From an uncultured Flavobacteriaceae bacterium (GTDB taxonomy: Bacteria > Bacteroidota > Bacteroidia > Flavobacteriales > Flavobacteriaceae), in assembly GCA_947497145.1 (NCBI GenBank), contig CANMFQ010000013.1, positions 1 to 64,000 of the forward strand: DNA of 64,000 nucleotides, in the 5' to 3' direction. The position numbers were made by a program, and so were the translations under genes. Of this stretch, positions 46,985-59,743 are shown one piece after another. Each line of letters begins with the position of its first letter. Position 1 is the stretch's first letter. Under the pieces are notes generated by a model. That model saw only the letters and a list, made by a program, of their open reading frames with translations. It was not told the DNA's origin and did no database searches.

Positions 46985-49900
46985 ATGAAGACTACGCTAT
47001 TTAAAAGTTTCATGCTGGTTGGCGCATTTTTGTGCTATGGACTAGTACATGCACAGACGGTGTCTGGTACAGTGTCTGATGAAACAGGGCCACTGCCAGG
47101 TGCCAATGTCATAGTGAAAGGTACAACCAATGGTACACAAACAGATTTTGATGGAAACTACACCATCAATGCAGCATCAGATGCAACATTGGTATTTAGT
47201 TATATTGGTTACAAAGCAACAGAAGTAGCCATAAACGGGCAATCTACAATTAACGTTACCTTACAAGAAGATGCTAGCAAACTAGATGAAGTAATTGTAA
47301 CAGGATATGGTACACAGGCCAAGAAAGATTTAACAGGTGCTGTAGCCGTAGTTGACACCGAAGAGTTATTAGCAACGCCTGCTACCACTTTTGCGCAACA
47401 ACTACAAGGTAGAGCTGCAGGGGTAAGCATTATTAATGATGCAAGACCTGGCGGTGAAGCTACCGTACGTATCCGTGGTTTTGGTACTGTAGGTAATAAT
47501 GACCCCTTATATGTTATTGATGGTGTACCTACGCAAGCACAATCAAACTTAAACCCTAATGATATTGAATCATTACAAATATTGAAAGATGCCTCTGCTG
47601 CATCGATTTATGGTTCAAGAGCTGCGAATGGTGTTATTATCATCACAACGAAAAAAGGTAAATTAGGAAAACCAACCATTACTTACGACAGCTATTATGG
47701 TATTCAAAATGCAGCTGAAAATGTAGAAGCATTAAATGCAGAAGAATTAGGAAGGTATTTATATTTAGCCGATTTGTATGCTGGTAAAGAGCCTTCACAT
47801 GGACAATATACATTTGGTCCAAATGGTGAGGTTACTATCCCTGATTATGTATTTCCAAGTAGAGGTGCTGAAGGTACTCCTGAAGTTGACCCTAGTCTTT
47901 ATGCTTTGGAGGAAGGTAATATTTATGCCATTACACGATCTGCTGATACCAATTGGTGGAAAGAAGTTACAAGATCGGCACCTATTAAAAGCCACAATAT
48001 ATCAGCTTCTGGTGCTACAGACAAAGCACGCTATTCTTTTTCGTTAGGGTATTTTTCTGCAGATTATATCACGAAGTTTTCAAGCTATGACCGAGTATCA
48101 TTAAGAGCAAATACCGAATTTAAAGCGCTCAATGATAAGTTAACAATTGGTGAGAATTTCACAGCATCCTTTGACAATCAAAAAGGAGACTTTAATAATG
48201 ATCAAGAACAAAATGCAGTATCCGCAGGATATAAACACCATCCATTGTTACCTATTTATGATATTGCTGGTAACTTTGCAGGGAGTAGAGGTGCTAACCT
48301 AGGAAACAACTTCAACCCGTATGCCAACTTAAAAAGAAATGAAGATGATCGTACGTATCGACTACGTCTTTTAGGTAACGTTTTTGCTGATTATGCCCTG
48401 ACGCCAAACTTGAAGATAAGAACCAGTTTTGGTGTTGACGCTAGAGTACAAAGAGAAAGAGACTTGGGGCGTCCGCAACCTGAATATGTAGAGGGTAACT
48501 TTGTCAACGAGTCAACAGCAAGAGAAGAATATGAATACCAATGGACCTGGCAAAATACCTTAAGCTATTCTAAAACCTTTAATGAAGACCACAATTTCAG
48601 TGCTTATGTTGGTGTTGAATCAATACAACAGTTTGAAGAGCGTTTTGAAGCTAGCAGACAGCGTTTTGCTTTTGAAACTACGAACATTTTAAGTTATTTA
48701 GACTTAGGTAATGCCACTACGGCATCAAATAGAGGTTATGTAGAACAGGATTATTCGCTATGGTCTCAGTTTGGAAAAATAAATTATGATTATAAAGGAA
48801 AATATCTAGCACAATTTATCCTTAGAAATGATTCTTCTTCACGTTTTTTATCAGCTAAAAGGAGTGCGGTATTCCCTGCCTTTAGTTTAGGATGGAGAAT
48901 TTCTGATGAAAGCTTTATGGAAGATGTCGATTGGATTAATAATTTAAAACTAAGATACGGTTGGGGACAAACAGGTAACCAACAAATAGGTGATTATAAC
49001 GCATTTACGACCTTCCGCTCTGATATCCTTACTGGAGGCTATCCTATTGATGGGTCTACAAGTTCACCACGAATTGGTTTTTCAACAGGAGCCTTCGGTA
49101 ATCCAAATGCTAAATGGGAAACTACAACTTCCAACAATATTGGTCTGGATTTAGTAATGTTGGATAGCAAAATCACGTTTAATTTAGACCTTTGGAATCG
49201 AATCACCAGAGACATGTTATTTCGTACACCAGTAACCTATACCGCAGGTCAAGCTGATGAACCACGTTTTAATGTTGGTGGTTTAACCAATAAAGGTATA
49301 GATGTCAGTTTAGGCTTTAGAGACCAAAAAGGCGATTTTAGTTATGGTATTAGTGGTAATATTTCAGCTTACAAAAACAATGTAGACTTTTTAAGCGATA
49401 GCCCTGATACACGATTTTTTGGTAACTCAAGAAGGGTTCCTTCTTTAAACGTTACCCAAGCAGGAAGTCCATTATCATCATTCTTTGGTTACAAAACGGT
49501 AGGTATATTTCAATCGCAGGCTGAAGCAGATGCATGGCCAGAATATGGCGATTACAATGCTCCGGGTAAATTTAAAGTTGCCGACATCAACAATGACGGT
49601 GTAATTAATGATGACGACCGTACTATTATCGGTAGTCCACACCCTGATTTCACTTATGGTCTTAACCTTGATTTAGCGTACAAAAATTTAAGTTTAAACG
49701 TTTTCGCAAATGGATCACAAGGCAATGAAATATATAACTATGTACGCTATTTTGCAGATTTCAACACCTTTCAAGGTAACCGTTCTAAGCGTGCATTGTA
49801 TGATGCATGGCAACCAAGCAACCCTACAGCCCCTGTTAGCCAATGGGTAGCCGCCAACCCTAACGCAACATCACCTATTCCTGATGCTGATGATGCAGTT

Positions 49901-50185
49901 AGTAGTAGACCTTCTACCTATTTTATTGAAGATGGTAGCTTCTTTAGACTTAAAAATGTACAGTTAACCTATAATTTTGATCAAAAAGTACTAGAAAGCA
50001 TAGGCGGCATATCAAGAGCATCTATTTATGTACAAGGTCAAAATTTAGCTACCTTTACGAAATATTCTGGTTTAAATCCTGAGATTCAAACCTCAAGCGA
50101 CCAAACACCTACTCTTGGTTATGATGGCGGTTATTTACCTGTATCCCGAACGTTCCTGCTTGGATTGAACATAACTTTAAATTAA
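46985..50185 (+). CDS. SusC/RagA-family TonB-linked outer-membrane protein
   Basis: This is a TonB-dependent importer that works with a SusD-like lipoprotein to take up oligomers. The 1066-residue protein has a signal peptide (1-23, ending HAQ) and a carboxypeptidase-D-like N-terminal domain (about 25-105, VSGTVSDETGPLPGANVIVKGTTNGTQTDFDGNY). The SusC TonB-box region is LDEVIVTGYGTQAKKDLTGAV. A plug domain (about 120-225, with DPLYVIDGVP and ILKDASAASIYGSRAANGVI) and a barrel to the C-terminal aromatic strand (LPVSRTFLLGLNITLN) follow. No regulatory STN domain is present. It pairs with the SusD gene 19 bp downstream. Confidence 0.96.
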   Translation: MKTTLFKSFMLVGAFLCYGLVHAQTVSGTVSDETGPLPGANVIVKGTTNGTQTDFDGNYTINAASDATLVFSYIGYKATEVAINGQSTINVTLQEDASKLDEVIVTGYGTQAKKDLTGAVAVVDTEELLATPATTFAQQLQGRAAGVSIINDARPGGEATVRIRGFGTVGNNDPLYVIDGVPTQAQSNLNPNDIESLQILKDASAASIYGSRAANGVIIITTKKGKLGKPTITYDSYYGIQNAAENVEALNAEELGRYLYLADLYAGKEPSHGQYTFGPNGEVTIPDYVFPSRGAEGTPEVDPSLYALEEGNIYAITRSADTNWWKEVTRSAPIKSHNISASGATDKARYSFSLGYFSADYITKFSSYDRVSLRANTEFKALNDKLTIGENFTASFDNQKGDFNNDQEQNAVSAGYKHHPLLPIYDIAGNFAGSRGANLGNNFNPYANLKRNEDDRTYRLRLLGNVFADYALTPNLKIRTSFGVDARVQRERDLGRPQPEYVEGNFVNESTAREEYEYQWTWQNTLSYSKTFNEDHNFSAYVGVESIQQFEERFEASRQRFAFETTNILSYLDLGNATTASNRGYVEQDYSLWSQFGKINYDYKGKYLAQFILRNDSSSRFLSAKRSAVFPAFSLGWRISDESFMEDVDWINNLKLRYGWGQTGNQQIGDYNAFTTFRSDILTGGYPIDGSTSSPRIGFSTGAFGNPNAKWETTTSNNIGLDLVMLDSKITFNLDLWNRITRDMLFRTPVTYTAGQADEPRFNVGGLTNKGIDVSLGFRDQKGDFSYGISGNISAYKNNVDFLSDSPDTRFFGNSRRVPSLNVTQAGSPLSSFFGYKTVGIFQSQAEADAWPEYGDYNAPGKFKVADINNDGVINDDDRTIIGSPHPDFTYGLNLDLAYKNLSLNVFANGSQGNEIYNYVRYFADFNTFQGNRSKRALYDAWQPSNPTAPVSQWVAANPNATSPIPDADDAVSSRPSTYFIEDGSFFRLKNVQLTYNFDQKVLESIGGISRASIYVQGQNLATFTKYSGLNPEIQTSSDQTPTLGYDGGYLPVSRTFLLGLNITLN

Positions 50186-50204
50186 TTTTAAAAATTATTC
50201 ATAT

Positions 50205-51959
50205 ATGAAAACTAAAAATATAATTTTCACTGCCTGCATCGCTATCATGATGTTTATAACAGGCTGTACGGATGAATATTTAACACGAGAACCCGAAGGT
50301 AGTTTTAGTGTATCAGATGTAACAACTGCTGACGGTGTTGAAGGCTTATTATTAGGTGCCTACAATATGGTACCTGGTGGCGGCCTTACTGGGCAAACTT
50401 GGCACAACGACATACACAGTTGGGTATTTAATATCGCCTCTGATGATGCCTTAAAAGGCACTGACGCGGGTGACCAACCTGAACAATCATTCATTGAAGC
50501 CTATGATTTTCAATCATTTAACGTACATATTAGAAATAAATGGTGGGGTCTTTACAAGGGCGTTGCGGCTACAAACATTGTGCTTACTACTTTACCCAAT
50601 GTAGAAGACATCAATGATGCTCGTAGAGCACAAGTTATTGCTGAAGCGCGCTTTTTAAGAGGATTATTTCATTTTGAAGCGAGAAAAATGTGGAGAATGC
50701 CCACTTACGTGAGTGATGAAAACTTTGACCTTAATGATTTAGAAAGTACCAAAGTACCTAATGACCGTGAAATTTGGCCTTTGATAGAAGCTGATTTTGA
50801 AGCTGCGGCAGCTGTTTTACCAACAACCCAAAGTGAAGTAGGTAGACCAACCAGTTGGGCTGCTAAAGCATTTTTAGCAAAAGCAAAAATGTACCAAGGT
50901 TGGGATGCTGATGGTAATGCCAATACGGCAAAATTAAGTGAAGCTAAAGTTATCTTAGATGAAATTGTAAATGATGGTCCTTTCTCGCTCGTTCCTAAAT
51001 TTGAAGACAATTTCTTAGTTGCTACAAGAAACAATGCAGAATCAATCTTTGAAGTACAGTACGCTATTAGTCAATCGTCAGGTGATGCTTCAAATAGAGG
51101 GATTGGTTTAGCGCACCCTTATACAGATCCATGGGGTTGCTGTGGTTTCTACCAAGCATCACAAAACTTAGTGAATGCCTATAAAACTGAAGATGGTTTA
51201 CCATTATTAGATAATTTTGACGACGAAGATGTAAGTGCAGAAGTAGATGAAACCACCACCCTTTCAACCTATACAGGTACTTTAGACCCAAGATTAGATC
51301 ACACGGTAGGTCGCCCTGGTATTTTGTACAAAGGTTTCAAAATTTATCAAAATGATTTTGTACGTGACATTACCTATGCAGGGCCATTTTTCAGTATGAA
51401 ACATGTTGCAGAACCTGAAAATCATGGTCAAGGAGGCTGGCAAAACCTGTCTGCTAACAACTACAGAATTATGCGTTACGACATGATTTTGTTATGGCTT
51501 GCAGAAGCTGAAGTAGAAATAGGTAGTTTAGAACGTGCAAGAGAGCTCGTAAATATGATTCGCATGAGAGCCTCAAATCCTGATGATTTTGTTCCTAAAG
51601 CAATTCAAGGAGAAGAACGAAATGACTTTACGGTTGTTGAAGATGAACCCGCTGCAAATTATGAAATTGCTACCTATGATACAGCATGGACAGATAAAGA
51701 TGTTGCTAGAAAAGCAGTTCGTTTTGAAACGCGTTTAGAGTTTGCCTTAGAAGGTCATCGTTTCTTTGATTTACAACGATGGGGTATTGCCGCAGAAACA
51801 CTTAATGCCTATATCGCTAGTGAATCACAACATAGAAACTATTTGCAAGGAAAAACATTTACCGAAGGAAAACATGAATTTTTCCCTATTCCTATTGAAG
51901 CAATTGACAGATCAGCTGTTGAAGGACAACCAACGTTAACACAAGATCCAGCATACTAA
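50205..51959 (+). CDS. SusD/RagB-family nutrient-binding lipoprotein
   Basis: This is the outer-membrane lid protein of the SusCD importer. The 584-residue protein has a lipoprotein signal ending MMFITGCTDEYLTREPEGSF. The N-terminal SusD-like domain has NKWWGLYKGVAATNIVL and AEARFLRGLFHFEARKMW. The C-terminal domain has RLEFALEGHRFFDLQRWG and GKHEFFPIPIEAIDRS. The length is typical. It is followed by a terminator, so the operon is susC-susD. Substrate is unknown; the nearby sulfatase hints at a sulfated glycan. Confidence 0.95.
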   Translation: MKTKNIIFTACIAIMMFITGCTDEYLTREPEGSFSVSDVTTADGVEGLLLGAYNMVPGGGLTGQTWHNDIHSWVFNIASDDALKGTDAGDQPEQSFIEAYDFQSFNVHIRNKWWGLYKGVAATNIVLTTLPNVEDINDARRAQVIAEARFLRGLFHFEARKMWRMPTYVSDENFDLNDLESTKVPNDREIWPLIEADFEAAAAVLPTTQSEVGRPTSWAAKAFLAKAKMYQGWDADGNANTAKLSEAKVILDEIVNDGPFSLVPKFEDNFLVATRNNAESIFEVQYAISQSSGDASNRGIGLAHPYTDPWGCCGFYQASQNLVNAYKTEDGLPLLDNFDDEDVSAEVDETTTLSTYTGTLDPRLDHTVGRPGILYKGFKIYQNDFVRDITYAGPFFSMKHVAEPENHGQGGWQNLSANNYRIMRYDMILLWLAEAEVEIGSLERARELVNMIRMRASNPDDFVPKAIQGEERNDFTVVEDEPAANYEIATYDTAWTDKDVARKAVRFETRLEFALEGHRFFDLQRWGIAAETLNAYIASESQHRNYLQGKTFTEGKHEFFPIPIEAIDRSAVEGQPTLTQDPAY

Positions 51960-51997
51960 GCAATATCAAATATAGCTTGTACAAGCTAAAATAAACG

Positions 51998-52039
51998 AAA
52001 AAGACCATGGGTAATTTTTTACCAATCATGGTCTTTTTT
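51998..52039 (+). terminator. Terminator after susD
   Basis: AAAAAGACCATG / CATGGTCTTTTTT (51998-52009 and 52027-52039) with an inner GGTAA/TTACC pairing and a T6 tract. Confidence 0.9.
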
Positions 52040-52115
52040 GTATTTTTAAACCTTCTTTATTACTACAATAAAGATTCCTTTTTTCAATTCGATTTTCTTA
52101 AGAAACATTCCTGCA

Positions 52116-55100
52116 ATGACCAAGAATTTACTTTTCGTATTTTTAACTGCACTTTTTTTTTCAGCATGCAATAGCGATGAAAAAAAACTATTCAAATTGC
52201 TTCCCTCAACCCATACCGGTATTGATTTCAACAATACAATTGTTGAAGTTGATAGCTCAAATATTTTAAACAACGAATATATTTTTAATGGTGGTGGCGT
52301 AGCCATAGGTGATTTTAACAACGATGAGAAGCCCGATATTTTCTTTACAGGAAACCAAGTATCTAATAAACTATATCTCAATGAAGGAAATTTCAAATTT
52401 CAAGATGTTTCTTCAATAGCAGGTATTGAAGCAATTGACAAATGGAGCACCGGTGTAGCTTTGGCTGATATTAATGCAGACGGCTGGCTTGATATCTATG
52501 TATGTGCAGCCATGTTACCTTCTGAAGAACAACGATCAAATATGCTTTTTGTACATCAAGGTTTAGACGAAAAGGGACATCCAAAATTCAAAGAAATGGC
52601 TAAAGTTTACGGTATCGCAGAAAGCCGTAATAGTATGGGAGCTACATTTTTTGATTATGACAAAGACGGCCTCTTAGATCTATATGTATTAAACAATGAG
52701 CAGGTACACACCTTACCCACCAATTACAGACCTAAAATTACTGACGGAAGTGCTATAAGCAATGATCGATTATACCACAATAATGGGGATGGCACTTTTA
52801 CTGATGTAACCCTAGCTGCTGGTATTACAATTGAAGGTTTTGGGTTGAGCATTGCCGTAGCGGATATTAATTATGACGGATGGCCTGATCTACATATAAG
52901 TAATGATTACCTCACTAATGACCTGCTATACATTAACAATCAAGACGGTACTTTTTCAAACAAAATAAAAGATAATATAAAGCATCAAAGCAAATTTTCA
53001 ATGGGTTCTGATATTGCCGATTATAACAATGATGGGTATGTAGACATCATCACTTTAGATATGTTGGCAGAAACTAATTATCGAATGAAAACCACTATAG
53101 GTAATAATAATTATATCAATTACATCTTTAATAAACGGTGGAATTACGAATACCAATACACCAGAAACATGTTACACATGGGCAATGGACCTGATCTTCC
53201 CTTTAGCGAAATTGGGCTTATGGCAGGAGTAAGTAAAACTGACTGGAGTTGGTCTCCCTTATTTGTAGATATGGACAATGACGGCTACCGTGACTTATTG
53301 ATTACCAATGGTTTTCCACGTGATATTACCGACAAAGATTTTGGTGATTACAATTTAACCGTAAGTCAATTTCTTAGTCCTATTAAAATTTTAGATTCCA
53401 TTCCTATTGTAAAAATTCCTAATTATGCTTTTAAAAATAATAAAGATGGAATTTTTACAGACACCAGCACACTTTGGGGTATCGATATTCCTTCTTTCTC
53501 TAATGGGGCAGCTTTCGCTGACCTAGATCTTGATGGTGATATGGATTATATTGTAAACAACATTAATGAAGAAGCGTTTGTCTTTGAGAATACGCTCAGC
53601 GCCAAAAATGAAGCTACAAACCAATTTTTAAAAATTAAATTACAAGGACCAAAATCAAATCCGCTAGGAATAGGAACAAAATTAACTATCAGATTTAATG
53701 ACAATACTTTTCAATACTTAGAACATTACCTAACCAGAGGCTATATGTCTTCTATAGAACCAACCGTTCATTTTGGCTTAGGAGATCATCAAGAAATTGC
53801 TGCTGTAGAAGTACTATGGCCCGATGGTAAGTATCAGAAAATTTCGAAAACAGCAAGCAATCAAATCCTCAAAATAAACTATACTAATGCAGAAGTAATT
53901 CAACTATCTGCCTTATCATTTCCATTAATACCCAAAACCAATAAACCCCTATTCAACGAAGTTTCAAAAGAAAAAGGAATTGATTACACTCATAAAGAAC
54001 GTGATTTTATAGATTACAACATACAACGTGTATTACCTCATAAACTGACTCAAAATGGTCCATGTATTGCTACTGGAGATGTAAATAAAGATGGCTTAGA
54101 AGATTTTATTATAGGAAGTTCAAGCACCTATTCTCCTCAGTTATTTTTACAACAAGTAGACGGATCTTTCGTTCAAAAACCATTATTTACAGAAAAAAAT
54201 GACAAGCTATATGAAGAAGAAAGTATGGTTTTATTCGATTTAGAAAATGATGGTGATTTGGACCTTTACCTAGTTTCAGGAAGTAATGAATTTGAAAAGG
54301 ATAGTGAAAACTACACGGATAGATTATTGATTAATGACGGAACAGGTGTATTTACTTCTGGTATAGGAAAAATGCCTAAAATTAATGCAAGCGGTGCAGT
54401 TGTAAAAGCTCAAGACTTTGATCAAGATGGCTTTACTGATCTTTTCATAGGCGGAAGAACGCCTGTAGCACAATTTCCGAAGCCCGAAAAAAGCTACTTA
54501 TTAAAAAATATAAATGGCGTATTAACAGATGTAACTCAAAAATATGCTTCTCAATTATCTCAAATAGGGATGATAACAGATGCCACTTGGGCAGATGTAG
54601 ATGCTGACAATTTAGTTGATCTTATTGTTGTTGGCGAACTTATGCCGATAACCATCTTTAAAAACAATAAAACTTCCTTTACAAAACTTGAACAAAATGG
54701 CTTAGAAACCATTTTTGGTTGGTGGGAAAGCATTGCATCGGGCGATTTTGACAATGATGGCGATATAGATTTTGTTGTGGGAAACCTTGGAGCAAATAAT
54801 TTTTTACAGCCTTCGGAAGACAAACCTGTAACTATACTCGCCAAAGATTTTGACAACAATGGTAGCGTTGACCCTGTAATGTTCGCTTACCTAAAAAAAG
54901 ATCGTAATAGTTACGCCTCTTTTCCTGTAAATTTTTGGGGAGACCTATCTGCTCAAAGTCCATTATTTAGGTCAAAGTTTAAACTATTTAAAGAATATGC
55001 TAAAACTACCCAAAAAGACCTTTTTACAACTCAAGAATTAGAAGGCTCTAAAAAACTAATTGGCAACTATGATAAAACCAGTTATGTTGAAAATTTAGGT

Positions 55101-55466
55101 GATGGTAATTTTAAAGCCCATGCACTACCAATGGCTGTACAATTAGCCCCTATCAATGCCCTATTGCCAATAGACTATAATGCCGATGGAAATTTGGATG
55201 TATTATTAATCGGCAATGATTATGGCAATGAAACCTTCATTGGCAGATATGATGCTTTCAACGGAGGGCTTTTAAAAGGTGATGGTAGTGGAAATTTTGA
55301 ACCTATTGAATTAGCAAAAACAGGTTTTAAAGCTCCTTATGACGCTAAGGCTATGGCTAAAATTACAGGCAATGACGGACAACCTTTATACATTGTTACT
55401 CAAAACAAAAACAAATTATTACTGTTTTCTCAATCAGATTCCACTCCTAGTCCGCTAAACAGATGA
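52116..55466 (+). CDS. FG-GAP/VCBS repeat lipoprotein with ASPIC/UnbV domain
   Basis: The 1116-residue surface lipoprotein has a signal ending LFFSACNSDEKK. It has many FG-GAP/VCBS calcium-binding repeats with DxNxDGxxD loops (GDFNNDEKPDIFF, ADINADGWLDIYV, YDKDGLLDLYV, ADLDLDGDMDYIV, GDVNKDGLEDFII, DFDQDGFTDLFIG, GDFDNDGDIDFVV). An ASPIC/UnbV domain (about 510-590, GIGTKLTIRFNDNTFQYLEHYLTRGY...VEVLWPDGKYQ) splits two beta-propeller halves. The family is frequent beside SusCD pairs in Bacteroidota and probably binds or presents substrates. It is separated from susD by a terminator, so it has its own promoter. Confidence 0.9.
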   Translation: MTKNLLFVFLTALFFSACNSDEKKLFKLLPSTHTGIDFNNTIVEVDSSNILNNEYIFNGGGVAIGDFNNDEKPDIFFTGNQVSNKLYLNEGNFKFQDVSSIAGIEAIDKWSTGVALADINADGWLDIYVCAAMLPSEEQRSNMLFVHQGLDEKGHPKFKEMAKVYGIAESRNSMGATFFDYDKDGLLDLYVLNNEQVHTLPTNYRPKITDGSAISNDRLYHNNGDGTFTDVTLAAGITIEGFGLSIAVADINYDGWPDLHISNDYLTNDLLYINNQDGTFSNKIKDNIKHQSKFSMGSDIADYNNDGYVDIITLDMLAETNYRMKTTIGNNNYINYIFNKRWNYEYQYTRNMLHMGNGPDLPFSEIGLMAGVSKTDWSWSPLFVDMDNDGYRDLLITNGFPRDITDKDFGDYNLTVSQFLSPIKILDSIPIVKIPNYAFKNNKDGIFTDTSTLWGIDIPSFSNGAAFADLDLDGDMDYIVNNINEEAFVFENTLSAKNEATNQFLKIKLQGPKSNPLGIGTKLTIRFNDNTFQYLEHYLTRGYMSSIEPTVHFGLGDHQEIAAVEVLWPDGKYQKISKTASNQILKINYTNAEVIQLSALSFPLIPKTNKPLFNEVSKEKGIDYTHKERDFIDYNIQRVLPHKLTQNGPCIATGDVNKDGLEDFIIGSSSTYSPQLFLQQVDGSFVQKPLFTEKNDKLYEEESMVLFDLENDGDLDLYLVSGSNEFEKDSENYTDRLLINDGTGVFTSGIGKMPKINASGAVVKAQDFDQDGFTDLFIGGRTPVAQFPKPEKSYLLKNINGVLTDVTQKYASQLSQIGMITDATWADVDADNLVDLIVVGELMPITIFKNNKTSFTKLEQNGLETIFGWWESIASGDFDNDGDIDFVVGNLGANNFLQPSEDKPVTILAKDFDNNGSVDPVMFAYLKKDRNSYASFPVNFWGDLSAQSPLFRSKFKLFKEYAKTTQKDLFTTQELEGSKKLIGNYDKTSYVENLGDGNFKAHALPMAVQLAPINALLPIDYNADGNLDVLLIGNDYGNETFIGRYDAFNGGLLKGDGSGNFEPIELAKTGFKAPYDAKAMAKITGNDGQPLYIVTQNKNKLLLFSQSDSTPSPLNR

Positions 55467-55791: not shown

Positions 55792-55875
55792 GCGCACGTG
55801 GCGGAATTGGTAGACGCGCCAGCTTGAGGGGCTGGTGACCATTAGGTCGTGGAAGTTCGAGTCTTCTCGTGCGCA
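55792..55875 (+). tRNA. tRNA-Leu (anticodon GAG)
   Basis: The acceptor stem GCGCACG pairs with CGTGCGC and the discriminator is A. The anticodon stem-loop is CCAGC-TTGAGGG-GCTGG with anticodon GAG, reading CUC/CUU. A long variable arm (TGACCATTAGGTCGTG) marks it as class II, and the T-loop is GTTCGAGTC. The total of 84 nt fits Leu. CCA is not encoded. Confidence 0.96.
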
Positions 55876-55882
55876 CAAACAC

Positions 55883-55917
55883 AAAACCCTGAGAATTGTA
55901 TGATTTTCAGGGTTTTT
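55883..55917 (+). terminator. Terminator after tRNA-Leu
   Basis: AAAACCCTGA / TCAGGGTTTTT (55883-55892 and 55907-55917) begins 8 bp after the tRNA end and has a T5 tract. Confidence 0.85.
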
Positions 55918-56012
55918 GTATTTTCTATCAAAATTTAATCCTTCAACCTTGCCGTTGAAGAACAGCGCTATTCTCTTTGATTTTATATTTTTAATATCAT
56001 ATTCTGTAAAAT

Positions 56013-56043
56013 TTTAAAACAACTATGAGGTAATTTAAATTTG
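56013..56043 (+). promoter_or_regulatory. Candidate promoter of the carotenoid operon
   Basis: TCTG (56013-56016), a 19-nt spacer and a perfect TAAATTTG (56036-56043). The -7 box overlaps the TTG at 56041 that the ORF track uses as a start, which supports the ATG at 56065 as the true start of the regulator. Confidence 0.6.
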
Positions 56044-56064
56044 TTTAACTATTTTTACAAAACT

Positions 56065-56964
56065 ATGAACAATGTAAAAAAAAACTTCAGTATTCGAGAC
56101 TTAGAAAATTTGTCTGGCATTAAAGCACATACAATTCGTATATGGGAAAAACGCTATAATTTACTTTCACCAGAAAGAACTTCTACGAATATAAGAACCT
56201 ATAGTATAAGTAGTCTTCAAAAGCTATTAAACATCACCTTACTGTACAACAACAACTACAAAATATCTAAAATTGCGAAAATTCCTGAAGTTGATATACC
56301 TCTTTTAGTTAAAGAAATTGTTTCTAAAAATAGCACCAAACATCAAGCTATAAATGCGCTAAAATTAGCGATGATTAATTTTGACCAAAGCCTCTTTAAT
56401 AATACGTATACCAATATTACAGCAGAAACCTCTTTTAGGGAGGTTTTTAAAGATATATTCATTCCTTTTTTAAACGAATTGGGTTTTCTTTGGCAAACTG
56501 ATTCCATTAGTCCAGCGCACGAGCATTTTATTACAGGATTAATTAAGCAAAAAATAATCGTTAACACAGAGCTATTACAGCACCAACAGGCAGTAAAAAA
56601 TGATAAAATATTTGTTCCTTTTTTACCTGAAAATGAAATCCATGAAATTGGATTACTGTATTTAAATTATGAGATTGTACTCAGAGGCTACAAATCAATT
56701 TATTTAGGACAAACCATTCCAATTGATACGCTAGAAGATGTTATGAAATATTTTGACAACATCTGCTTTGTTTCCTATTTTACCGTAGCTCCCTCCAAAG
56801 AAAAAATTGAAAAATTCATGGCTGATTTTAATAGTTTAGCAAAAATTCACACAAACATTGAGTTGTGGGTACTAGGTCGTCAAACGAAACATTTAGAAAC
56901 ATCAATATTGCCAAATTTTGTACGAACGTTCACCTCAATTGATCAAGTTGTTCAAGAGCTATAA
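56065..56964 (+). CDS. MerR-family regulator with B12-binding domain (CarH/LitR-like)
   Basis: I use the ATG at 56065, giving 299 residues. The N-terminal MerR helix-turn-helix (about 5-70) reads FSIRDLENLSGIKAHTIRIWEKRYNLLSPERT. The middle helical domain and a C-terminal Rossmann-like domain match the cobalamin-binding module of CarA/CarH/LitR. The Wx9EH motif is Trp143...Glu153-His154 (WQTDSISPAHEH). The ExH motif with the His that would coordinate cobalt is ENEIHEIG (His193). In CarH the B12-bound tetramer represses carotenoid genes in the dark and falls apart in light. It lies 20 bp upstream of crtI and is probably both regulator and first gene of the operon. Confidence 0.82.
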   Translation: MNNVKKNFSIRDLENLSGIKAHTIRIWEKRYNLLSPERTSTNIRTYSISSLQKLLNITLLYNNNYKISKIAKIPEVDIPLLVKEIVSKNSTKHQAINALKLAMINFDQSLFNNTYTNITAETSFREVFKDIFIPFLNELGFLWQTDSISPAHEHFITGLIKQKIIVNTELLQHQQAVKNDKIFVPFLPENEIHEIGLLYLNYEIVLRGYKSIYLGQTIPIDTLEDVMKYFDNICFVSYFTVAPSKEKIEKFMADFNSLAKIHTNIELWVLGRQTKHLETSILPNFVRTFTSIDQVVQEL

Positions 56965-56984: not shown

Positions 56985-58445
56985 ATGTCAAAGAAGGTTA
57001 TTATAATAGGATCAGGGTTTTCGTCGCTATCAGCATCATGCCACTTAGCAAAAGCTGGGTTTGACGTTAGCGTTTACGAAAAAAACAACACCGTTGGAGG
57101 TCGAGCACGCCAGCTAGTTAAAGATGGCTTCACATTCGACATTGGTCCAAGCTGGTATTGGATGCCAGATATTTTCGAAAAGTTTTTTAATGATTTTGAA
57201 AAAAAAACAACCGACTTTTATCAACTTGACAAATTAGACCCTGCGTACAAAATTTTCTTTTCTGACGATACCATTACAATTGGTGATTGCATGGATAAAA
57301 TATGTACAGAGTTTGAGCGTATCGAGCCAGGTAGCGCTGTACATCTCAGAAAATTTATTTTAAAAGCACAAGAAAACTACCGCATCGCTATTGACAAAGT
57401 GGTTTTACGTCCTGGTCTTAGCCCACTTGAATTAGTCACACCTGAAACCATAGCAAAAGTTGATCAGTTTTTCAAAACTATTAGTAGTGAAGTACGACGT
57501 AATTTTAAAAACAAAAAGCTCATTTCAGCCCTAGAATTCCCTGTTTTATTTCTGGGTGCAAAACCCAACAACACCCCAGCATTTTACAGTTTTATGAATT
57601 TTGCTGATTTTGGTTTAGGCACCTGGCATCCAAAAGGAGGTATGTATGAAATTGTTAAGGCTATGGTTTCCTTAGCAAAAACATTAGGAGTGAAATTTCA
57701 TACCAATACGCCTGTAAAAAAAATAAGGGTAGAAAATGGCAAAGCCGTTGGTATTATCGCCAATAAAACTGCTATTGATTGTGACATTGTTGTTAGTGGT
57801 GCTGATTATCATCATTCTGAAACCCTATTAGACTCAAAATACCGGCAATATTCAGAAGCCTACTGGTCTAAAAAAACCTTTGCCCCTTCTTCATTACTTT
57901 TTTATATCGGCTTCGATAAAAAATTAAAAAATATTGAACATCACAATTTGTTTTTTGACACAGACTTTGAGCAACATGCAAAAGAAATTTATGACAGTCC
58001 GCAATGGCCAACAAACCCCTTGTTTTACGCAAATTTCCCATCAGTAACTGATGCTAGCATGGCGCCTAGTGGCTGTGAAACTGGTTTTTTTTTAGTGCCC
58101 ATAGCACCTGGTTTAGAGGATACCCCTACACTAAGAGATACATATTTTAAGCTTATTATGGCACGATTTAAAGCTAGAACAGGCCAAGAAATTGAAAATA
58201 ACATTATCTTCAAAGAGTCTTTCTGTGTAAATGATTTCATTGAGCAGTACAACTCGTATAAAGGCAACGCGTATGGTATGGCGAATACACTTATGCAAAC
58301 TGCTTTTTTACGACCTAAATTGAAAAGCAAAAAGGTAGAAAATCTGTTTTTCACAGGACAACTTACGGTACCAGGACCAGGAGTTCCTCCTGCATTGATA
58401 TCAGGAAAATTAGTAGCATCATTAATCAATAAGAACAATAGCTAA
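56985..58445 (+). CDS. crtI: Phytoene desaturase
   Basis: CrtI is an FAD-dependent enzyme that converts phytoene to lycopene by stepwise desaturation. The 486-residue protein has the dinucleotide motif KKVIIIGSGFSSLSASCHLAKAGFDVSVYEKN. GRARQLVKDGFTFDIGPSWYWMPD follows, and the CrtI C-terminal signature is LFFTGQLTVPGPGVPPALISGKLVASLI. The length is standard. It is followed by crtB after 4 bp. The first Gly-rich loop is GSGFSSLSA, slightly unusual for the usual GAGIGGLAA but with the key glycines kept. Confidence 0.95.
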   Translation: MSKKVIIIGSGFSSLSASCHLAKAGFDVSVYEKNNTVGGRARQLVKDGFTFDIGPSWYWMPDIFEKFFNDFEKKTTDFYQLDKLDPAYKIFFSDDTITIGDCMDKICTEFERIEPGSAVHLRKFILKAQENYRIAIDKVVLRPGLSPLELVTPETIAKVDQFFKTISSEVRRNFKNKKLISALEFPVLFLGAKPNNTPAFYSFMNFADFGLGTWHPKGGMYEIVKAMVSLAKTLGVKFHTNTPVKKIRVENGKAVGIIANKTAIDCDIVVSGADYHHSETLLDSKYRQYSEAYWSKKTFAPSSLLFYIGFDKKLKNIEHHNLFFDTDFEQHAKEIYDSPQWPTNPLFYANFPSVTDASMAPSGCETGFFLVPIAPGLEDTPTLRDTYFKLIMARFKARTGQEIENNIIFKESFCVNDFIEQYNSYKGNAYGMANTLMQTAFLRPKLKSKKVENLFFTGQLTVPGPGVPPALISGKLVASLINKNNS

Positions 58446-58449
58446 ACTT

Positions 58450-59289
58450 ATGAAAAGTATTTTTGACAAGGTATCTTATGATTGTAGTAAGATTACCACC
58501 GAATCATACAGCACCTCATTTGCTTTGGCTACCAAAATGTTGTCATCATCAATACGTGCTGACATTTACAATATCTATGGCTTTGTTCGTTTTGCAGATG
58601 AAATCGTTGATTCTTTTCATGCTTATAACAAAACTAATTTATTTAATAAATTTGAAGCAGATTTAAAAATTGCTATTGTTGAAAAGATCAGTTTAAATCC
58701 AATTTTAAACGCTTTTCAGCATACTTTTCACACCTACGATATTCCATTTGATTTGGTTGAATCGTTTATGAAAAGTATGCGTATGGATCTTACAAAAACA
58801 GCTTACAAAACCGAGGAGGAATATAAAGAGTACATTTATGGCTCTGCTGATGTGGTTGGCTTAATGTGCCTAAAAGTTTTTGTAAAAGGTGATGACGTTA
58901 AATTTAATCAGTTGAAAGAACCTGCCATGGCATTGGGTTCTGCCTTTCAAAAAGTCAACTTTTTAAGAGATTTAAAAGCTGATTTTGAAGATTTAAATAG
59001 GGCGTATTTTCCCCATGCTGATTTGACAGAATTAGACGAAACATCGAAAAAACTAATAATTGACGAAATAAAAAATGATTTTCAATTGGGAAAAAAAGGA
59101 ATTTTAAAACTTCCTGAAGAGGCGAAATTTGGGGTTTACACTGCCTATAAATATTATTACAAACTATTACAAAAACTAGAAAAAACCCCTTCGCTAGAAA
59201 TTAAAAATACTAGAATAAGAGTGCCTAATTATCAAAAATTTGGGCTTTTGGCAAAATCATATTTTAATTACAAATTACACCTAGTTTAA
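58450..59289 (+). CDS. crtB: Phytoene synthase
   Basis: CrtB condenses two geranylgeranyl diphosphates to phytoene. The 279-residue protein has the first Asp-rich region YGFVRFADEIVDSFHAYNK (DEIVD) and the second Asp-rich region VNFLRDLKADFEDLNRAYFP, with YIYGSADVVGLMCLKVF between them. Both metal-binding motifs are intact. The start ATG lies 4 bp after the crtI stop, and crtZ starts 1 bp after its own stop region. Confidence 0.94.
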   Translation: MKSIFDKVSYDCSKITTESYSTSFALATKMLSSSIRADIYNIYGFVRFADEIVDSFHAYNKTNLFNKFEADLKIAIVEKISLNPILNAFQHTFHTYDIPFDLVESFMKSMRMDLTKTAYKTEEEYKEYIYGSADVVGLMCLKVFVKGDDVKFNQLKEPAMALGSAFQKVNFLRDLKADFEDLNRAYFPHADLTELDETSKKLIIDEIKNDFQLGKKGILKLPEEAKFGVYTAYKYYYKLLQKLEKTPSLEIKNTRIRVPNYQKFGLLAKSYFNYKLHLV

Positions 59290-59290
59290 A

Positions 59291-59743
59291 ATGAAAATAT
59301 TTATCTGGACACTTATATTTAGCGGTACTTTTATATTCATGGAATTCATGGCGTGGTTTACGCACAAGTACATTATGCATGGCCTTTTATGGAGTTTACA
59401 CAAAGACCATCACCACAAAGATCATGATTCTTGGTTTGAACGTAATGACGCTTTTTTCATTTTTTATGCCATTGTAAGCATGTCACTTTTTTATGCTGGT
59501 GCTAATGGCTGGTGGTACGGATGGGCCATAGGCTTTGGTATATTGGCTTATGGTATTGCGTATTTCTTGGTACATGATATTTTCATTCACCGACGTTTTA
59601 AATTATTTAGAAATACAAAAAACTGGTATGCCTTAGGCATACGACGTGCGCACAAAATGCATCACAAACATTTAGGCAAAGATGATGGAGAATGTTTTGG
59701 TATGTTATTCGTTCCTTTTAAATACTTTAAAAAAGATAAATAG
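59291..59743 (+). CDS. crtZ: Beta-carotene hydroxylase
   Basis: CrtZ is a di-iron membrane hydroxylase adding 3-OH groups to beta-ionone rings to make zeaxanthin. The 150-residue protein has the His-rich motifs HKYIMHG, HKDHHHKDH, HDIFIHRR and RRAHKMHHKH, and membrane helices (FIWTLIFSGTFIFMEFMAWF; IFYAIVSMSLFYAGA; GFGILAYGIAYFL). No lycopene cyclase gene is adjacent, although the product is needed to make the CrtZ substrate. It is the last gene of the visible operon. Confidence 0.93.
   Translation: MKIFIWTLIFSGTFIFMEFMAWFTHKYIMHGLLWSLHKDHHHKDHDSWFERNDAFFIFYAIVSMSLFYAGANGWWYGWAIGFGILAYGIAYFLVHDIFIHRRFKLFRNTKNWYALGIRRAHKMHHKHLGKDDGECFGMLFVPFKYFKKDK

Follow-up and report, generated by a model that had tools for sequence, protein, structure and literature searches.

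The regulator gene and its operon

The window, i.e., the whole stretch of 64,000 nucleotides from an uncultured Flavobacteriaceae bacterium that was analyzed here, contains a gene for a MerR-type regulator that is followed on the same strand by three carotenoid biosynthesis genes. The features at the locus, including conserved positions within the regulator, are the following:

55792 to 55876: tRNA-Leu gene, upstream of the regulator gene
55883 to 55916, plus strand: strong terminator-like hairpin after the tRNA-Leu gene, separating the operon from upstream transcription
56036 to 56043, plus strand: -7 promoter box TAAATTTG, a perfect Bacteroidetes TAnnTTTG, ending 21 nt before the ATG
56042 to 56049, plus strand: TGTTTAAC, a candidate operator that overlaps both the -7 box and the initiation region (TTTGTTnA at a fixed distance from the ATG)
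56065 to 56964, plus strand: MerR-type regulator of 299 amino acids (aa) with an ATG start, candidate adenosylcobalamin (AdoCbl) photoreceptor and autorepressor
56086 to 56283, plus strand: MerR winged-helix DNA-binding domain (aa 8 to 73; PF13411, 47.4 bits, above cutoff)
56350 to 56556, plus strand: four-helix-bundle cap domain B12-binding_2 (aa 96 to 164; PF02607, 33.5 bits, cutoff 23)
56491 to 56493, plus strand: codon of Trp143, the putative adenosyl-stacking Trp (W131 in Thermus thermophilus CarH, TtCarH), forming GxxW together with G140
56521 to 56526, plus strand: codons of Glu153-His154 (E141-H142 in TtCarH), forming W-x9-EH with Trp143
56635 to 56652, plus strand: E191-x-H193-x-x-G196, putative lower axial His motif (H193 corresponds to H177 in TtCarH)
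56740 to 56961, plus strand: C-terminal half of the Rossmann domain, the least conserved part (aa 226 to 299; SxL reads S237-Y-F, GG reads G271-R272)
56985 to 58445, plus strand: crtI, phytoene desaturase (NF058655 CrtID, 726.6 bits, cutoff 640)
58450 to 59289, plus strand: crtB, phytoene synthase (PF00494)
59291 to 59743, plus strand: crtZ-like carotene hydroxylase gene, assigned by its His motifs and gene order, without a library match

A sequence-only reading had placed the regulator in front of crtI-crtB-crtZ and had assigned its open reading frame (ORF), the ATG at 56065, Trp143, Glu153-His154, and His193; all of these proved exact upon re-reading of the sequence. The gap between the regulator gene and crtI is 20 nt. 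Since the tRNA-Leu gene and the terminator-like hairpin lie upstream, transcription of the operon is expected to begin at a promoter of its own. The regulator gene is the first one of this yellow-pigment operon, and the bacterium is of a marine type. The crtI product scores above the cutoff of a model for bifunctional phytoene desaturase/3,4-desaturase, and a search of the bacterium's own genome with PF18916 gave no lycopene cyclase. Upstream of the tRNA-Leu gene, positions 46985 to 55466 encode a SusC/SusD-like pair and then a 1116-aa protein with FG-GAP-like repeats, recognized by eye.

The order regulator-crtI-crtB-crtZ was found in 92 of 100 loci (80 named GTDB contigs and 20 loci from whole genomes, a few possibly representing the same species twice). 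Three further loci share it, two being cut by contig ends and one lacking a recognized crtZ, which brings the total to 95, and in four loci crtIBZ are arranged divergently beside the regulator. Overall, crt genes adjoin the regulator in 99 of the loci, L106 being the single one without. At the genome level, the regulator is present in 97 of 121 Flavobacteriaceae genomes, all 97 of which carry this crtI (a 98th match, in G023, is HTH-only and was not counted), and in none of the 16 genomes without crtI. In a divergent flavobacterial subtype (L047, L048, L050, and L052; 32 to 39% identity), a putative fasciclin-domain gene flanks the regulator near the crt operon; the MerR-B12 gene of Eleftheria terrae (L198) also neighbors a fasciclin gene.

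A MerR family regulator before crtI has been reported in Sediminicola YIK13, Flavobacterium TH167, and Nonlabens spongiae, and in the available parts of these reports it is assigned neither a cofactor nor a light response nor an operator (PMC4732338, PMC5887021, PMC11855829). The gene position was already known from genome papers, and in the available parts of this openly licensed literature a cofactor or light claim was found in none.

Promoter and candidate operator

Upstream of the start codon, the promoter-overlapping element TAnnTTTGTTnA occurs in 80 of 82 loci, compared with 0.3 expected from Markov shuffles. In the window, the ATG follows 25 nt after the start of the TTTG in the -7 box, and 71 of 80 anchored loci have this same distance. 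Within the extended element lies TGTnnA, which is the CarH half site TnnACA read as its reverse complement, and in nine loci the element forms part of the palindrome TTTGTTnAACAAA. From this conservation we infer that the element could be an operator, for which it is the best candidate; it may equally be core promoter, and we lean slightly toward a regulator that acts through an element overlapping the -7 box.

According to the competing explanation, TTTGTTnA would be core promoter only, and the regulator would bind elsewhere or control other genes, which is compatible with its proposed part as a photoreceptor. This is consistent with the fusion of TTTGTTnA to the -7 box and with the failure of a clear regulon to emerge beyond the operon, as TANNTTTGTTNAAC has 12 matches in the own genome and 10 in the reversed control. 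Likewise, no consistent element of the TTTGTTnA type was seen in non-flavobacterial homologs. On the other hand, TAnnTTTG boxes of other ORFs at the same loci mostly lack the TTnA extension (present in 17 of 120), which speaks against this explanation, and a purely core-promoter role appears possible but rather unlikely to us. Among the genomic matches, TACATTTGTTTAAC has a similar geometry, with a GNAT acetyltransferase gene following 20 nt downstream (L189, G000 C10:38386); this is a possible second target site, too weak to claim.

The sequence-only reading had described a good promoter with a 20-nt leader after its -7 box. The label "good" applies to the -7 box only, while a -33 (TTG-type) element was neither seen at the expected spacing in the window nor found conserved among relatives. 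The 20 nt are correct as the gap between box and ATG; as a 5' untranslated region they overstate the length, the true one probably being a few nucleotides shorter. A sigma-70 scan for TTGACA/TATAAT was discarded, as this consensus is uninformative for Bacteroidota. The same reading had suggested looking for a CarH operator-like repeat, and none emerged: positions 55880 to 56075 hold 4 TnnACA/TGTnnA matches versus 2.9 expected, none of them 11 bp apart, and the tandem 11-bp TnnACA pair of CarH operators was found neither in the window nor in any of 82 relatives. CarH operators are known to be plastic (PMC9304148). Some relatives carry a further upstream repeat with 46-bp spacing, which the window does not retain at this position.

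Cofactor motifs, predicted fold, and B12 supply

The regulator has all tested features of the broad LitR/CarH family, namely, a MerR HTH, a B12-binding_2 domain with Wx9EH, and a Rossmann domain with (E/D)xHxxG, which here reads E191-I-H193-E-I-G196. A Pfam search gave no match to the Rossmann B12-binding model PF02310, and the best NCBIfam match was the CarH model NF052513 with 68.4 bits versus a curated cutoff of 400 bits. Against solved structures, phmmer returned T. thermophilus CarH as best matches (E = 3e-11). An AlphaFold model built from 58 sequences (mean pLDDT of 87.9) comprises HTH, helical-bundle, and Rossmann parts, and its top solved matches in Foldseek were full-length CarH with AdoCbl (5c8d and 5c8e; E = 4e-14). 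The cobalamin domain of CarH alone matched the model with a TM score of ~0.84 by target length and an rmsd of ~2.7 Å, and the next Foldseek family was the B12-binding domain of a Chloracidobacterium MerR protein (8jbs/8jbt). The Rossmann part is present in the model, with alternating strands and helices, and was matched to CarH.

We aligned 159 homologs, comprising 133 flavobacterial proteins termed type A (including that of the window) and a more divergent set of 26, most of which come from other lineages of Bacteroidota. G140, W143, and E153 are invariant in all 159, while 157 have H154 and 158 have H193. The exceptions are confined to two proteins, L156 (H154Q) and L180 (both His positions lost); among the type A proteins there is one H154Q. 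With this degree of conservation, W-x9-EH and the axial His can be taken as no chance motif. In the Bacteroidota homolog L180, EH is changed to EV and the axial His to Ala, making it a natural candidate for a B12-independent, CarA-like protein. In Myxococcus CarA, which is cofactor independent, Wx9EH is lost (PMC9304148), and its retention here together with the axial His argues for continued use of AdoCbl.

Other positions are less well kept. Published light signatures are GxxW, EH, GxxH, and GxxxP (PMC11796333), three of which are present in the regulator (GFLW, EH, and GQTIP); GxxH reads N190-E-I-H, and NxxH is the form in 123 of 133 type A proteins, with GxxH in 16 of the 26 others. The nucleotide-tail motifs (S/T)xL and GG read S-Y-F and G-R and are degenerate across the group; most type A proteins have Arg, Lys, or His instead of the second Gly of GG (position 272). 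Within type A, the C-terminal half of the Rossmann domain has a mean entropy of 2.2 bits versus 0.8 to 1.2 bits for the other structured parts. Furthermore, His132 of TtCarH aligns with Gln144, and Gln occupies this position in 130 of the 133 type A proteins. In TtCarH, His132 is the light-state cobalt ligand; according to the most recent study, an H132A variant still binds AdoCbl but its tetramer disassembles poorly in light, whereas an earlier report had found that it does disassemble (PMC10442372). AdoCbl binding by the regulator is therefore plausible, and the light step may run differently. Since three aligned proteobacterial MerR-B12 proteins likewise have no His at this position, we do not treat His132 as a defining residue.

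The own genome encodes a PduO-type adenosyltransferase and methylmalonyl-CoA mutase, owing to which AdoCbl should be available in the host, and it also carries a cobalamin riboswitch. Of the crtI-containing genomes, 97 have a PduO-type adenosyltransferase and 8 do not; the regulator occurs in 93 of the former and 4 of the latter (Fisher's test, P = 0.0009, ignoring phylogenetic relatedness). Of the four genomes that keep the regulator without a recognized adenosyltransferase, G008 and G063 encode a B12-binding protein of methylmalonyl-CoA-mutase size. The small, 99% complete genome G065 (L020/L116) has a motif-complete regulator but neither a PduO nor a CobA adenosyltransferase; its sole B12-binding protein is of methionine synthase size, and no AdoCbl enzyme was recognized. 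We let G065 stand as a small counterexample to AdoCbl use.

These four genomes, the degenerate tail motifs, and the unmatched PF02310 would be in line with the main rival explanation, a regulator of CarH fold that has lost cofactor use and is instead controlled by a partner protein or some other signal, for which Myxococcus CarA and class II LitR provide precedents (PMC9304148, PMC9758184). However, the loss of B12 use in CarA accompanied that of Wx9EH, and here few positions in the effector half are as conserved as Wx9EH and the axial His, so we consider B12 independence unlikely. Still less probable in our view is a cobalamin sensor that signals B12 status or redox state through bound AdoCbl and for which light is incidental. 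It would account for the conserved binding motifs, and the Gln in place of His132 could blunt a light-driven structural change, but carotenoid genes are the targets in practically every locus, and the adenosyl-facing Trp and Glu that serve light sensing in CarH are invariant.

Proposed mechanism and relation to known systems

We favor, with some confidence, a regulator that would act as an AdoCbl-dependent, light-relieved autorepressor of the crt operon. In the dark, AdoCbl would be held between the four-helix cap and the Rossmann domain. Trp143 would stack on the adenosyl group, Glu153 and His154 would make contact with this group, and His193 would be the lower cobalt ligand. The AdoCbl-loaded regulator would then oligomerize and bind the TGTTTAAC-type element, which overlaps the -7 box and the start point of the promoter from which the regulator itself is transcribed, and the bound oligomer would keep the regulator-crtI-crtB-crtZ operon low. 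Upon exposure to light, the Co-C bond would break, the adenosyl group would leave, and the oligomer would loosen, so that the operon could be transcribed and a photoprotective carotenoid be made. AdoCbl binding, light response, oligomer change, and repression are carried over from CarH by analogy; binding is likely in our judgment and, once binding is granted, a light response is likely too.

The CarH/LitR-like B12 light switch put forward in the sequence-only reading is thus supported in part: the predicted fold, the invariant adenosyl-face and lower-axial motifs, the crt synteny, and the AdoCbl supply agree with it, while the missing CarH operator repeats, the degenerate tail motifs, and the Gln at the His132 position do not. 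Stimulation of the crt promoter, by the classical MerR mode or by RNA polymerase contact, appears improbable to us. It would be in line with the lack of a conserved -33 element, which may leave the promoter in need of help, and with a conserved AAnTTTTAA block that many relatives have ~40 bp before the -7 box, but protein bound at the strongest conserved extra element, over the -7 box and start point, would presumably block transcription, and characterized CarH proteins are repressors (PMC9304148, PMC4557120).

A search of the openly licensed literature returned no experiment on this regulator family. In Flavobacterium sp. JSWR-1, zeaxanthin production is highest under white and lowest under green light (PMC11016774), a pattern that, if the strain carries this regulator, does not fit a simple green-induced CarH model. 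If the mechanism is true, a B12-based light switch governs carotenoids in most carotenoid-making Flavobacteriaceae and in other Bacteroidota, light-controlled pigment is a family-wide trait of Flavobacteriaceae, and pigmentation and light protection of abundant aquatic heterotrophs depend on vitamin B12 that they scavenge. With its tail motifs lost and His132 missing, the regulator family would then also serve as a natural test case for the CarH parts that light sensing truly requires.

Outside Flavobacteriaceae, nine loci from other families of the class (L165, L166, L167, L171, L173, L174, L175, L178, and L179) have a small gene between the regulator and crtI(-crtB) or just upstream of a divergent crtI. 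The two that were scanned encode ECF-type sigma factors, and the remainder resemble them in their C termini. In a tree, all Bacteroidota proteins lie apart from TtCarH and the proteobacterial proteins, and the type A clade is nested among the ECF-linked ones, which suggests that the sigma gene was lost in the lineage of the window (the root is uncertain and branches are long). More speculatively, and with doubt on our part, there could be a Bacteroidota-wide CarH variant in which the adenosyl face is frozen, the tail pocket is loosened (so that B12 scavengers could use corrinoids with different lower bases), and the light step proceeds without bis-His ligation (His132), acting at the promoter-fused TGTTnA in Flavobacteriaceae and via an ECF sigma factor elsewhere. 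In Chryseobacterium lacus, light-induced crt expression has been reported without car/lit genes; as none of six sampled genomes of another family in the same order carries a homolog of the regulator either, this counts neither for nor against the mechanism.

Compared with known systems, the regulator shares with T. thermophilus CarH (5c8d/5c8e; class I LitR/CarH) the MerR HTH, four-helix bundle, and Rossmann parts, Wx9EH, ExHxxG, the predicted fold, and a position adjoining carotenoid genes (in Thermus a crtB-type synthase and photolyase). It differs in its identity of only ~24%, degenerate SxL/GG, Gln144 for His132, NxxH for GxxH, its place at the head of the crt operon, the lack of the tandem 11-bp operator, and an NF052513 score of 68 versus 400 bits. 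Streptomyces LitR-LitS resembles the ECF sigma plus crtI-crtB layout of non-flavobacterial Bacteroidota, while the operon of the window has no sigma gene; light-induced carotenogenesis in Streptomyces follows such a layout (Takano 2005, as cited in PMC11016774). Myxococcus xanthus CarA, a B12-independent CarH paralog, has the same domain layout and a carotenoid target (PMC9304148) but no Wx9EH, which the flavobacterial regulator keeps (W143 and E153 invariant, H154 in 157 of 159), so that a CarA-type assignment is unlikely. Class II LitR (Pseudomonas PplR/PmlR2) belongs to the same family and keeps the four-helix bundle but lacks the Rossmann domain, and PmlR2 acts together with a LOV photoreceptor (PMC9758184); this assignment was rejected, as the regulator has both domains and the axial His, the modeled Rossmann part is matched to CarH, and the neighbors are crt genes. 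MliR of Bizionia was dismissed as an ortholog since it has no effector domain. On paper, the regulator works like CarH; because the curated CarH score, the tail motifs, and the operator array all fell short, we file it as a divergent variant of the LitR/CarH family rather than as CarH itself.
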